Shown here in pieces: positions 4,565-10,565 of a stretch of DNA of 64,000 bases (its first letter is position 1; the number at the start of each line of letters is the position of its first letter). Location of the stretch: positions 1 through 64,000 of the forward strand of contig JAGYIV010000014.1 of the NCBI GenBank assembly GCA_018402345.1, given 5' to 3'. Both the position numbers and the translations under genes were made by a program. The notes beneath the pieces were generated by a model, which worked only from the letters and a program-made list of their open reading frames with translations, made no database searches and was not told where the DNA came from. The DNA is from Terrimicrobiaceae bacterium (GTDB lineage: Bacteria > Verrucomicrobiota > Verrucomicrobiia > Chthoniobacterales > Terrimicrobiaceae).

Positions 4565-7542
4565 TTAATTCTTGTTCAAAGGGTTTGGGATGGGGTCGAT
4601 TTTGATGCTCGCGATCACGTAGGAGTCTATTACCGATCTATTTGAGAAATAGTAAGGGCTCCAATCACTTTCACTTGATATTGAAACCAATGATGGTCCA
4701 TCGGCATAGCGCATTAACGATAAGCTATTTGAATAAATAGGCTCGAGTTTATCCCCCAGAATTTCCTTTGCTTTGCTGAGCGGCATTCCGAGGTGGATGC
4801 CATTGGAAAGCTGAAATGGATTTTCATCTTGCCTATGGGATGTGCTGCGAAAATCTCCTCCAGCAAGTTTATCTTCAACAAGTAGCAATAATGTCATTCC
4901 GTCATCGTAAAGAAGGGCTTCCCTCTTTTGTTCGAGGTCGAGCGTTGCTATGGGTGGGCCGATTTTATCGATGATTTCGCTTTTGGTTGCACCCAAGGGG
5001 CAGTTGGCAATGCTGCGGGAAGGATTGGCCCATAGAAAATTCAAGTCCGTTTGTAGGCGCCCGCCCCTTCGTTGAGGAGGCACAAACGAGGCGGGGAGCA
5101 CCTTGATTGATTGGATGTAGTCGCGATTTCGAACATTTTTGGTTTGAAACGATACATTTTGATCACTAATGGCAAACGACTTGCGCATTTCATCGTAGTT
5201 ATCTGGCAAGCTTTCCCGTGCCTTGTTGAGCTCCATCATGGGGTGGATTCCATTCGAAAGCTTCCATCCTCCCCAGTAAGTATTTACTGTATAACTTGAC
5301 GATGGGGCGGCGAATTGCATGCTCTGAGAATCCGTTATAAACGTGATGTTTTCTTTATCCTCGATGGAGACGCCGCACAATTTCCCATCGTCAAAATAGA
5401 GAATGCAATCACTTCCGTAGACAAGTTCCGAGCTGCTGGTGCCGTCTTTTATGTGACAAGTAGGCGCACCCAGGATCTGGATCACATCATCGACAGAGGA
5501 ACCGTAGGCGCACCCGAAGATGCTTTTGCCGGGGTCGATCGTTCGATTTTTGAGCGGTTTGGGGCTTTTGAACCAAGGGGGTGTTGTGATTTCGGCGAGG
5601 GCTTGCGGAGGGGGCGTGATTTCATTTGATGCTTGCTGGTTGTCTGGAGGTGTTGGCAGGTTGGTGCTCTTGGTTTTGGGTGGTTGATTTTCCGGCGGTG
5701 GCTGTGCCGTGCGATCGGTTTCTTGAGGTGTGTTGCGGGCGACCCTAAACCCAAGCGAGCGGGCGCGGCCGGTTTCTTTGGCGAATTCTCGCAGCGGACT
5801 CTCTGCTCTAAAGTGGAGATCGGTATGAGTGGTGCCAGACATATAGGAGCCTCCTAAAATTCCGTATGTCGGAATATCAATATCCCAAACCCATTCGAAC
5901 ACATTGCCGCTCATGTCATGGATTCCCAATTCATTGGGTTTTTTCATACCCACAGGGCGCGCCCATTTTTCCCCGGTCGTCGCCATGCCATGCCACGTCG
6001 TTCAAGGCATTGCTTCCGCTGAATCTGTAGCCTTTGAGTGAATGCCGCCACGGGCCGCAAACTCCCACTCGGGTTCGGTGGGGAGGCGGTAGCCATTGGC
6101 GTTGAGGTTCATTTCCGGCTCTTCCTCATCGGATTTATAGATTTGTCCACCTTGCCAGTAGACGGGTTGGAGTCCCTCTTTTTCGCTTTTGGCATTGCAC
6201 CAGAGCATGGCTTCGCGGCGGGAAACGCCTTCCATGGGCAACTCCGGCTCGTTCGTGCGTGTGGGGCGGGATAGCGTGTAGCCGTGCTGCTGGGCATAGG
6301 ACTGGATGGCAACCCACTCGGCATTCGTGACTTCGTATTTTGCGATCTGAAACGACTCGACCTTTGTCCCGGCCAAGTTCGCTTTGTCAGAAAGCGTTCC
6401 ACCCTCGATGGCAATCATTTCCGTGGGATTGAATTGTTCGGGATTCTTGCGAACCGGAAAATTTTTCTTCGGGGGGATGCCGCACCCAGCTGAGGGAGAT
6501 CTCACGTGAGCTTTGGAAATGGGGTCGATTTGAATGCTGTAAATCGTATAGTTATTGATGTCTTTTCGAGCATCTTCTTCAGACATACCTGGTGTGTGTC
6601 GGGAGCTGGATCGAATGGTGACCAGGGAGTCGCCTTCTTGGTAGGCAATTTGATAGAGTGAATCTGAGGCATTAAATTTCTCTCCCAAGACTTCTTTTGC
6701 TTTTGACAATGGACCGTCCAACGCGATGCCGTTTGTCATGAAGATCGTGTTATCTCGTGCTGTATAGGGGGCTTGATTTAGTAGCATGGAGGAGGTTTGA
6801 AAGAGGCCTCCGCCTAAAACCCCATCCCAAACAGTGAGAAGGGCTTGACTGTTGTGGTAAAGCAGGCCGATTTTATTGGAGCCGAGATCCACTTTGCCCT
6901 CAGGTTCGCCAAGAATTTTTATGATTTCAGCTTCAGTCGATCCGAGAGGCGCATCCAAAGATGCTTTTTCCAAGATCGACACTTTCACTTATATTAGCCG
7001 ATTTATGTTTTTTAACATCGATACTATAAATCGTGTAAGAACTAATGTCATTTCTATCTTTGTCGTATTGCGAGCTGCAAATGCAAAGTAATGAGAAAAT
7101 CTCCATCTTTGTAAGAGGCGCGATAAAAATCCTTATTTAACTCAAGTCGGTCTCCGAGGATGTCTTTGGCCTTCTGCAAGGAACTCCCAATCGAAATCCC
7201 GTTGGGTAACGCATATGGAGTTTTATCTTTGTTATAAGAAGTGCTTATATTTAAAAAAGAGTTGCTTGAAAATTTTCCATCCTGTAGTTTCCCATGGTTA
7301 AAGCCCAAAAGAGCTGTTCCTTTATAAAACAAGAGGGCGGTTTCGTTATCCGACAACCGGAAATTGGCGAACGGCTTGCCTAAGATCTTGATGACCTCTT
7401 CCTCAGTGGAGCCAATCGGGCAGCCCAAGAGGCTTTTGCCGGGATCAATGCTGGCGTTTTGCGGGGAAGTGGTCTTTGCGGAGGACATGATCGAGGGCGC
7501 GGAGTAGGTGAGCTTCTCGGGCTTGTTGGGCTGTGGTGTCAT
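4565..7542 (-). pseudogene. multidomain protein: four BamE-like repeat units around a SUMF1/FGE-like domain, multiply frameshifted
   Basis: Read 5' to 3' on the minus strand, the order is a proline-rich linker, repeat 1 (about 7455-7010), repeat 2 (about 6960-6500), a SUMF1/formylglycine-enzyme-like domain (about 6430-5750), another Pro/Thr-rich linker, repeat 3 (about 5535-5080) and repeat 4 (about 5010-4570). Repeats open with DPGKS(L/I)xGC or a variant, then GSTEEEVIKILGKP, then a short beta-rich part, then NGI.....KAKE.LG. This recalls the SmpA/BamE outer-membrane lipoprotein fold. The SUMF1 part has YRLPTEPEWEFAARGG, MSGNVFEW and LGFRVAR, but no Cys in the GGSY segment where true formylglycine enzymes have catalytic cysteines. 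Coherent protein moves between frames near 7076, 6955, 6030 and 5990. Its start is uncertain: it may begin at 7542 or be fused to the upstream thioredoxin. Confidence 0.65.
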
Positions 7543-8165
7543 TTTTCCATTTTGCGAGGGCGTCCTTCGGAGACAGAGTGGCGACATCGTTGCGGGCGTT
7601 GCGCGAGGCGATGCGTCCGGCGGGGTCGAGGACGATCAGGGTCGGGAATGCTTCTGATGTTGAATGTGCTGTCCAGGAGTGCCTTTTGAGGTGATCCGAA
7701 GGGGAGCGCGGGCCATGGCATGCCGGCTTCCTTCATGTAGGAAAGCATGGCTGCGGCATCCCGGTCCGAGCTGGCGAAGACGACGTCGAACTGGTCGGGG
7801 ATTTGGTTGCGGAATTCGACGAGTTTTGGGGTGAATGTCCGGCATGGCCCGCACCATTGGGCCGAGAAGTAAATGCCGACAAACTTTCCTTTGAGACTTG
7901 CAGGGTCGACGGGGGAGCCGTTGGCATCGACAAGTTCTTTGCCGATCAATTGATCCAAAGTGTATGCTTGGGCGTTTGCGGGCGCGTTTTGAGTGCTCGG
8001 GGTGGACGTTGGTTTTTCTGCGCGTTCATTGCGGCTGGAAGTTGATTCAGTAATTGGGAATTCCGGGAGGGTGGGGTGGGGAGGGGGTGGAGAGAGTTTA
8101 TCTGCGTTCGTGGTGAATAGACTTCCTGCCAAGATGCTGAGGGTGAGTAGGATTTGTTTTTTCAT
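7539..8165 (-). CDS. secreted thioredoxin-like (TlpA/nucleoredoxin type) protein, frame disturbed at C-terminus
   Basis: The N-terminus has a signal peptide (MKKQILLTLSILAGSLFTTNA) followed by a Pro/Ser-rich spacer. From residue 67 comes a thioredoxin fold with the redox motif WCGPC (Cys105 and Cys108), as in tryparedoxin/nucleoredoxin-like proteins of the periplasm. After SIP at residue 174 the good sequence continues in another frame (TLIVLDPAGRIASRNARND), so an extra C in a CCC run near 7645 is likely. The next segment shifts again into the reading frame of the downstream repeat protein. Together this suggests that the thioredoxin and the BamE/SUMF1 gene were one long secreted protein. It starts 28 bases after the anti-sigma-like gene and is probably in its operon. 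Confidence 0.72.
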   Translation of the reverse strand: MKKQILLTLSILAGSLFTTNADKLSPPPPHPTLPEFPITESTSSRNERAEKPTSTPSTQNAPANAQAYTLDQLIGKELVDANGSPVDPASLKGKFVGIYFSAQWCGPCRTFTPKLVEFRNQIPDQFDVVFASSDRDAAAMLSYMKEAGMPWPALPFGSPQKALLDSTFNIRSIPDPDRPRPRRTHRLAQRPQRCRHSVSEGRPRKMEK

Positions 8166-8193: not shown

Positions 8194-9576
8194 TCACGCT
8201 GCGGCCAATCGGGCGGCGCGTTTGATTAGATCGAGAAAATCGGCGCGCTGGCGGTCGGGATCGGCACCCAGGTTGTTTGCCGCGAGGTGGTGGAGGGCGT
8301 TCCAATCGAGGGTGTCGGACTCCGGAGTGTGGGCGAGTTTCATCCCGAACGCGGCCACGGCGGCGGCGAATTGGAAGTCGGTCGAGTTTTTTCTGTCTGG
8401 CTTGATGGCATTTGCGAGGAATGCGATCGAGTTGTGGCGGCAGTCGGTGTCGCTTGGAAATTTGTGGTGGACGGTGAGGTTGCAGAGTGTTGCATCCGCC
8501 GCCGCACGGTTCCACCCCGGCGTGGGAACGATTTCATAAATCGCTGTGAGTGAAAAAGGTAACGCCGGATTGTGCAGGCTCTTGAGGGTCCGCCCGCTGC
8601 CGCCTTGGTTCTCGTAACCGATCAAGCGGTATTCAGAGACCAGGTTGGGGTTGAATTTTAAAGAAATGGAGAAGGTCTTCAGCAAGAGGCTGATGTCGTC
8701 CGAGGGGTTGCGGACATCGAGGCTGACTTTGAGGAGGATGCGGTCGGGATTCCACGGGGCCTTGCCGGCCTCGAGATCGATGGCGACCGGGCCGCACGCT
8801 TGGGCATTTTCCATGGAATAGCGGAAGGCATTGACCAGTTCATCGATCCGGATGCTCTTGGGGTCCGGCAATCTGCCCGCGTGAATCTCGCTGCGCACCA
8901 ATGCGTAGGAGTCGCTCGTCGCGCTCATGGGGAGGTAGGTTTCCGGGGTATTGCTGGTCGCGGTGAAGGGATTGTCCGCCGTGCGGCGGGCATGCTTGGT
9001 GGAGGGCTGGCCAGCGCGCAGGGGGGTGGAGGTGAATTCGGGATTGAAGGGTTGGCAGTCTTCGGATGCAGCGGCGGTGCGCTGCGTGGAGGTGGCAAGG
9101 GTGGCGAGAGATGAATCCGGGGCGTGATCGATGGGCTGTGCGGCGTCGTTTTTCAGCAGTCCGCTCTTGGGCTTTGACGCATCCACCATGGCCGGCTCGT
9201 AGTGGGCTGTGCTTGGTTCATGGCTCGCTTCGGCGACGGGCGTCGGCTCGGCGGGCGGGCGGGTGGACACGCCTCCTAATATCAAGGCGATCGCAGCCAC
9301 TGCGGCGAGGCTCAGCGGGAGGGCGAATCGAATGACTTTGGATGCCAATTGTCGGGAGGCGACATTTTTTTGGCATTGGGAAATGAGGCGCTCGCGTTGG
9401 TCGGGGGCGAGGCTATCGGTGGATTTCGTCACCCCGCGCAGGCTGTCCATGAGGGTGATCGTCTCGTGAAGCTCCTGCTGGAGTTCGGGGGAGGACGCCA
9501 AGGCATGCTCGAACTCGTCGCGGCGCTTGCCGTGGAGTTCGCCAAGGGCGTAATCGATACAGTCGGGGTTTTTCAT
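8194..9576 (-). CDS. anti-sigma-like membrane protein: YfbK relative lacking the von Willebrand domain
   Basis: A 460-residue protein. Residues 1-45 look like a short anti-sigma N-terminus (CIDYALGELHGK). A single membrane helix follows at 82-103, then a low-complexity linker to about 200. Residues 200-285 match the region that precedes the vWA domain in YfbK-type proteins (SYALVRSEIHAGRLPDPKSIRIDELVNAF, PWNPDRILL). From about 300 the C-terminal YfbK domain follows directly (FNPNLVSEYRLIGYEN, TAIYEIVP, DFQFAAAVAAFGM). The roughly 180-residue vWA domain normally between them is absent. The ATG at 9576 overlaps the sigma-factor stop (ATGA), giving a coupled sigma/anti-sigma pair. The role as anti-sigma is inferred from this context. 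Confidence 0.8.
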   Translation of the reverse strand: MKNPDCIDYALGELHGKRRDEFEHALASSPELQQELHETITLMDSLRGVTKSTDSLAPDQRERLISQCQKNVASRQLASKVIRFALPLSLAAVAAIALILGGVSTRPPAEPTPVAEASHEPSTAHYEPAMVDASKPKSGLLKNDAAQPIDHAPDSSLATLATSTQRTAAASEDCQPFNPEFTSTPLRAGQPSTKHARRTADNPFTATSNTPETYLPMSATSDSYALVRSEIHAGRLPDPKSIRIDELVNAFRYSMENAQACGPVAIDLEAGKAPWNPDRILLKVSLDVRNPSDDISLLLKTFSISLKFNPNLVSEYRLIGYENQGGSGRTLKSLHNPALPFSLTAIYEIVPTPGWNRAAADATLCNLTVHHKFPSDTDCRHNSIAFLANAIKPDRKNSTDFQFAAAVAAFGMKLAHTPESDTLDWNALHHLAANNLGADPDRQRADFLDLIKRAARLAAA

Positions 9577-10088
9577 TGGGGTTGCTGCTCCGGGAGGGGG
9601 TGGTCGGTGTTCCAGAGTGTTTTCAATGACTTGATCGTCTCGTGCAGTTGCACGCCGATGTGCGAGATGCTCATCTTCATCACAGCGGCCATCTCTTTGT
9701 AGGAAAGGTCGCCTTCGAACTTGAGCTTCAGGAGTTCGCGCTGGCGTGCCGGGAGCGCGGCGACAAGGGAGGCGAGTTTTTTCCTGTCCTCCTCGGCGAT
9801 CAACAGACGCCGGGGGCACATGTCGACCGGCAAATCCTGCTCTTCGAGGAGTTCCAGATGGCGAGCGCTTTTGCGGCGGTGATCGAGGGCGCAATTCCGG
9901 CAAACAAAGTAAAGCCAAGGAGCGAGGCGGGGCTCCAATTTCTCCAAATCCTGACGACTCAATCGCAAAAATGTCTCCTGCACGGCATCCCTCGCGGCGT
10001 CGAGATCGCCAGTGATTTGCCTGGCATAACTGACCAACGGCTTTTCAAACCGCTCGATCGCCAAGGTGATGGATTGCTCAGAGGACAT
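9573..10088 (-). CDS. ECF-type RNA polymerase sigma factor
   Basis: About 171 residues from the ATG at 10088; a GTG nine bases upstream is an alternative start. Region 2 is seen in GDLDAARDAVQETFLRL and LAPWLYFVCRN. Region 4 is a helix-turn-helix, LPARQRELLKLKFEGDLSYKEMA followed by MSISHIGVQLHETI. No extra C-terminal domain is present. It probably directs transcription of its own operon, running through the anti-sigma-like, thioredoxin and repeat-protein genes on the same strand. The stop overlaps the next start by four bases. I cannot assign it to a named ECF group with confidence. Confidence 0.92.
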   Translation of the reverse strand: MSSEQSITLAIERFEKPLVSYARQITGDLDAARDAVQETFLRLSRQDLEKLEPRLAPWLYFVCRNCALDHRRKSARHLELLEEQDLPVDMCPRRLLIAEEDRKKLASLVAALPARQRELLKLKFEGDLSYKEMAAVMKMSISHIGVQLHETIKSLKTLWNTDHPLPEQQPQ

Positions 10089-10565
10089 GGGTGTCACAGG
10101 GGGTCAACGGAGAAGTGGGAATTTTATTAGGAAAAAAATTCAACATTTTTTCTGCGGGGGTGTCCGTGCGCCTGCAAAGCAAGATTCGCACCCAACCCGA
10201 GGGTGGTGCATATGAGCGCCTTCGAAAATCCGATAATCGTTGAGACATTGAGACGAGCCTTTCCGGGACCGTCAAAAAAATGGCCGATCGGCCAAAAAAG
10301 TTGCGGGATTGAAACCGGGGGAATACGCTGCCAAAGTATGTCAATATGAGCGACAACCCACGCCTATTCAAAACTCATTATCTTTGGCAACAGCTTCTAA
10401 AAACCCCCAACTTTTCCCCTGCAAACTAAGGCAGTGGCTGGCGCTGTTTGCTGACATGGCAAAAAACCTCACCGATCGCTGAACCCGACTCGAGATTACC
10501 ATGGGAGGCGTTGTGGGTTGTATACCCCATTGAGTTTCAGCTTTCTTAACTCAACTTTGCTGCCC
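10089..10565. other. intergenic region between sigma-factor operon and small lipoprotein gene
   Basis: About 480 bases without a convincing gene. It should contain the promoters of both divergent transcription units. The one clear element is the palindrome at 10281-10294. A run of C's and A's lies around 10405-10420, without a convincing stem. Confidence 0.5.
10281..10294 (-). promoter_or_regulatory. perfect 14-bp palindrome TGGCCGATCGGCCA
   Basis: It reads the same on both strands and sits about 190 bases upstream of the ECF sigma gene. On the minus strand it can fold as TGGCC-GATC-GGCCA and is followed by a run of seven T's, which looks like an intrinsic terminator. It could equally be an operator for a dimeric regulator. 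Confidence 0.45.

Follow-up and report, generated by a model that had tools for sequence, protein, structure and literature searches.

In ECF pairs, a single-pass anti-sigma protein tethers the sigma factor to the membrane until it is released by a signal from outside. The von Willebrand (vWA) domain is usually regarded as the working part of the three-domain layout of YfbK, ArnB and Sec23/24. What, then, can such a protein do when this domain is missing? The question is raised by a minus-strand gene at 8194-9576 of the window, the 64,000-nucleotide stretch of a Terrimicrobiaceae genome that was analysed. The reading frame is intact (460 aa; ATG at 9576, stop at 8194-8196, no internal stops), and Pfam places PF12450 at residues 193-282 (E 1.7e-16) and PF12034 with its best stretch at 361-456 (E 4.9e-21), while no vWA family matches the protein even at E<=1. 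The joint between the two domains is about 20 residues long, and the vWA domain that belongs to the definition of the YfbK family is not there. An earlier note on this DNA had described PF12450 as running straight into the YfbK C-terminal domain in an intact gene that is translationally coupled to an ECF sigma factor; this description is borne out by the open 460-aa frame and the ATGA overlap, and the domain borders it gave are off by about 10 residues at most. The gene is the only PF12034/PF12450 gene in the source genome. Its parts, and the sigma gene, are as follows.

8194..9576, minus strand: putative anti-sigma factor of the YfbK type without a vWA domain, 460 aa (open reading frame and Pfam)
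9573..10097, minus strand: ECF sigma factor, 174 aa (PF04542 and PF08281); its stop overlaps the anti-sigma ATG as ATGA
9427..9576, minus strand: residues 1-50, helical N-terminal part, likely sigma-binding (modelled helices 4-10, 16-28 and 30-48; dN/dS 0.12 against the congener G019)
9271..9333, minus strand: residues 82-102, probable single transmembrane helix (hydrophobic segment in the same place in G019 and other relatives; modelled helix)
8977..9264, minus strand: residues 105-200, disordered linker (pLDDT mostly <50; dN/dS 0.61)
8731..9000, minus strand: residues 193-282, PF12450, first part of the beta-sandwich (Pfam and model)
8680..8730, minus strand: residues 283-299, the joint, where relatives hold the vWA domain (alignment with relatives)
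8197..8679, minus strand: residues 300-460, YfbK C-terminal domain (PF12034), the other sandwich strands and the helical bundle (Pfam, model and fold search)

The position of the cut is the same wherever it was aligned. In all aligned sets, the protein runs unbroken as far as about 'LVRIGLKGRE' and is picked up again near 'TIAKDVK', ahead of the 'EFNP' strand; the cut always falls between 'KGRE' and 'TIAKDVK', which is the border of the vWA domain, and its exact ends vary by lineage. The structure model of the window protein has a mean pLDDT of 78.9, and most of residues 200-460 reach about 90 or higher. Its top fold match is ArnB (8s05_B; Z 7.3, rmsd 4.0; next row 5.0), where residues 262-460 align with ArnB 2-354 over 151 residues and the vWA domain of ArnB is skipped; with a predicted model as the query, this Z of 7.3 is under 8 and below the level where a fold match stands alone. 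The model of G041, a vWA-bearing relative, matches the same ArnB over its whole length (427 columns, E 6e-17, Z 19.9), and its fold matches include ArnB, ITIH1, a Catenulispora vWA protein and Sec23/24. Searching solved structures by sequence yielded no useful match. The sandwich-then-bundle layout of the ArnB/Sec23-24 core is therefore seen in the window model at a Z under 8, and the vWA insert of this layout is absent from the window protein and present in G041. The beta-sandwich of ArnB is topologically split by its vWA domain, and the predicted E. coli YfbK has an ArnB-type architecture (PMC12852372). The models thus suggest an ArnB/Sec23-24 layout for YfbK-type proteins, with the vWA domain interrupting a beta-sandwich that is followed by a helical bundle. 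Considering that the vWA domain would be an insert in the sandwich, the two halves of the sandwich could close again after its removal.

We consider it likely that the gene encodes a single-pass membrane YfbK-type anti-sigma factor from which the inserted vWA domain was removed in frame, and that the shorter protein works. We propose the following arrangement. The N-terminal helices (residues 1-50) would retain the ECF sigma factor of the same gene pair at the inner membrane; the transmembrane helix 82-102 and then the flexible linker 105-200 would lead to a periplasmic module, a topology read from the hydrophobic segment and the model. Residues 200-460 would be the periplasmic sensor, in which a rejoined beta-sandwich (PF12450 and the first YfbK_C strands) is predicted to be followed by the helical bundle. 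A signal on this sandwich-bundle module would free the sigma factor, and the metal site of the vWA domain would no longer be involved. As this domain is gone with its metal site, its ligand would no longer be the input, or would only ever have been a modulator.

This arrangement can be compared with known systems. YfbK-type proteins (PF12450-vWA-PF12034) encoded beside ECF sigma genes have in common with the window protein the N-terminal helices, the transmembrane helix and both Pfam domains, and they likewise have an overlapping or adjacent ECF sigma gene upstream (also in the Rhizobium record L105); they carry a vWA domain with the DxSGS metal-site motif, whereas the window protein has neither. 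With the Sulfolobus proteins ArnB and ArnE (VWA2; PDB 8s05, 5a8j), the likeness is the beta-sandwich followed by the helical bundle. Unlike ArnB, a phosphorylation-controlled motility regulator, the window protein has no vWA domain, is predicted to be membrane-bound and has a putative sigma-binding part. The Sec23/Sec24 core and inter-alpha-inhibitor heavy chain 1 (6fpy) resemble the vWA-bearing G041 in fold; they are eukaryotic, retain the vWA domain and have other functions. Transmembrane class I anti-sigma factors of the RsiV/RseA kind share the helical N-terminus (modelled helices 4-10, 16-28, 30-48 and 58-102 in the window protein), the one transmembrane helix, which is probable in the window protein, and the co-encoded ECF sigma factor, but the periplasmic part differs and no named anti-sigma family was matched by the sequence of the window protein. 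Pfam gave none for it, and for G019 only a sub-threshold zf-HC2.

Is the short form peculiar to this genome? The same shortened gene stands beside the same sigma gene in two congeners, G019 and G023, and across this three-species set protein identity to the window is 61% (G019) and 31%. A translated search of relatives gave a continuous vWA-less match in another family as well (G028). The sigma gene is adjacent to the anti-sigma gene and co-oriented with it, in the window and in relatives. The anti-sigma gene is unmatched in 12/16 genomes of the genus, not all of which are complete, and G024 holds a decayed copy with several stops (L046 45-956, minus strand); thus the system is dispensable in the genus.

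For a wider view, whole genomes were searched with a profile of the joined PF12450 and YfbK_C core (A1), which tells contiguous from split matches; the tallies per taxon were read from the listed match coordinates. Within the order, 58 genomes matched, and 13 of them have the vWA-less form. An evenly drawn sample of the phylum gave at least 6 such genomes among 135, and family f17 about 20 among 139. The earlier note had ascribed a vWA domain to all homologues and had proposed a search for PF12450/PF12034 proteins without it beside ECF sigma genes; the search gave about 30 vWA-less relatives in Verrucomicrobiota, and the statement is wrong as a generality, though most homologues do have the vWA domain, presumably the ancestral state. 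At the extracted loci, the vWA-less frames stay without a match to a separate vWA profile, and an ECF sigma frame lies directly upstream wherever the contig extends far enough. In most of these genomes the vWA-less gene is the sole YfbK-type match and hence stands in place of the long form; an exception is genus g73, where a divergent vWA-bearing neighbour is present. No contiguous vWA-less match was found in other classes of the phylum among the matches listed, and a scan of genome contigs, part of the survey for relatives beyond the phylum, returned G019 as its sole match. Plasmid records gave only partial matches, none reaching 80% query coverage; among these records, proteins annotated as vWA in Rhizobium, Nostoc and E. 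coli match in two parts with a vWA-sized gap, which makes loss the likely direction of change. A limited search of open papers found no description of vWA-less YfbK proteins, and a paper on class I anti-sigma factors makes no mention of vWA.

Several odd frames were seen at these loci. In g73 (L073 669-3452, L117 2-2344, L118 4967-7477), a sigma-like segment and a vWA-bearing YfbK protein seem to be fused in one open reading frame, which directly adjoins another sigma gene paired with a vWA-less anti-sigma gene. In G126 (L074 3366-4082), a sigma-like segment is joined directly to the C-terminal half of YfbK in a 239-aa frame, which may have arisen by deletion, as a chimera or through an error of assembly. 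In G127 (L061 5050-5537, minus strand), the sigma gene beside a very recent-looking vWA-less gene is itself split over two frames; this assembly may therefore contain indel errors.

How often was the vWA domain lost? On a sigma tree of 46 rows and a core tree of 53 rows, 7 changes of state were counted each, and a single vWA-less clade is rejected by the AU test on both; one origin of the short form is thereby rejected. When family f17 is sampled more fully, the resulting sigma tree (65 rows) has 15 changes, at least 9 of them forced by well-supported branches, and a quick core tree of 70 rows, in which fast rows are drawn together, has 10 changes, at least 5 forced. The loci were chosen partly for vWA absence, and these counts are valid for the chosen set only; the placement of some rows is uncertain owing to fast-evolving rows. 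The 65-row sigma tree also contains a long-lived vWA-less clade of six species (family f8, genus g45). Five syntenic same-genus pairs differ in the vWA domain: G331/G363, G591/G593, G164/G162, G599/G600 and G665/G664. In the first, G331 lacks the domain, G363 has it and the flanking genes match on both sides; the last three pairs likewise share flanks, and G591/G593 do so on one side only. The earlier note had taken homologues with the vWA domain in the same place as a sign of an assembly deletion. Such homologues do exist in other species (G363), but the reading as a deletion artefact fails, as the single-contig assembly G331 is truly without the domain. The shortening is recurrent and domain-precise in the bacterial class of the source, and this is a stronger result than the single gene.

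The protein changed after the loss. In relative-rate triplets, unique changes were always more numerous in the vWA-less core than in its vWA-bearing sister (104 vs 10 for the window, 62 vs 12 and 64 vs 13), with far smaller rate differences between the sigma factors of the same triplets; row L073, where the frame is vWA-bearing, was left out of the rate and selection comparison. Comparing the window gene with its G019 counterpart gives an overall dN/dS of about 0.24; the values are 0.12 in residues 1-50, 0.18 in residues 201-460 and 0.61 in the linker, and all are rough since synonymous sites are near saturation. Both ends of the window protein are under purifying selection. Among positions at least 90% conserved in vWA-bearing proteins, two classes were separated. 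P237, N249, F251, P274, W275, L281, F308, R317, G320, T344, E348, P351, A408 and L414, for example, are kept in nearly all vWA-less lines. Largely lost are 218-222 'DVDTA', Y250, K300, K303, K372, S379, Y443 and the 'EDFNxDxxDAGEIGAGH' loop at about 326-341; these residues probably once faced or served the vWA domain. Losses that look recent retain almost all of the conserved positions (G127 0.99, G631 0.93, G331 0.92), and the window protein stands at 0.48.

The faster change of the core also fits a partly relaxed protein. By the strongest alternative, the signal is no longer received once the vWA domain is lost, and the protein is a plain membrane tether or basal sigma inhibitor heading to loss. 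This would agree with the core rates, with the retention of the 91 formerly conserved positions falling to 48% in the window, and with the absence of a match in 12/16 congeners and the decay in G024. However, the core is held at a dN/dS of about 0.18, the fold-forming residues are retained in all lines, the structure model is confident and the six-species clade of g45 is long-lived; we therefore regard such a remnant as rather unlikely. The working shortened design, which the earlier note had already suggested, draws support from conservation in three species, purifying selection, the well-folded model and the many vWA-less relatives.

A second alternative is that the sensor is split rather than shortened, with the vWA domain supplied in trans by another protein. 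The source genome does have four vWA matches elsewhere (contigs C1, C2 and C4), none near the anti-sigma gene; they lie on different contigs without a link to the anti-sigma system, no separate vWA frame was found near the vWA-less genes except in g73 with its tandem long form, and the decay of residues suggests that no partner docks there. This makes a partner in trans very improbable. An assembly deletion in the window genome, which could be suspected from the neighbour at 4565-8165, broken over several frames here but not in G019 so that indel errors are possible, is refuted as the cause by independent assemblies of other species with the same domain loss (G019, G023 and the single-contig G331 and G297) and by the clean frame across 460 codons, and can hardly be credited.

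For the shortened, working anti-sigma factor, a more general reading may be offered tentatively, and we hold it to be possible rather than probable: the vWA domain of ECF-linked YfbK sensors would be a removable input module, excised cleanly and in frame many separate times at one joint. The sandwich and bundle would keep or change the input alone, the surface that formerly served the vWA domain would be freed and the sigma output would stay fixed. The repeated excision is the surprising part of the finding. Together with close relatives that keep the domain at the same locus, it provides natural matched pairs, with which one can ask what the vWA domain does, whether the sandwich and bundle are able to sense alone and how a protein survives the loss of a whole domain.

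The gene next to the anti-sigma gene in the window (4565-8165, minus strand) has a thioredoxin-like start, repeated segments and an FGE-sulfatase domain. Its counterpart in G019 is one long open reading frame (L042 4350-6527), and its several broken frames in the window reflect either a pseudogene or assembly indels. In G023, too, this thioredoxin-like gene comes next after the anti-sigma gene; it was not found beside the vWA-bearing genes of G041 or G009.
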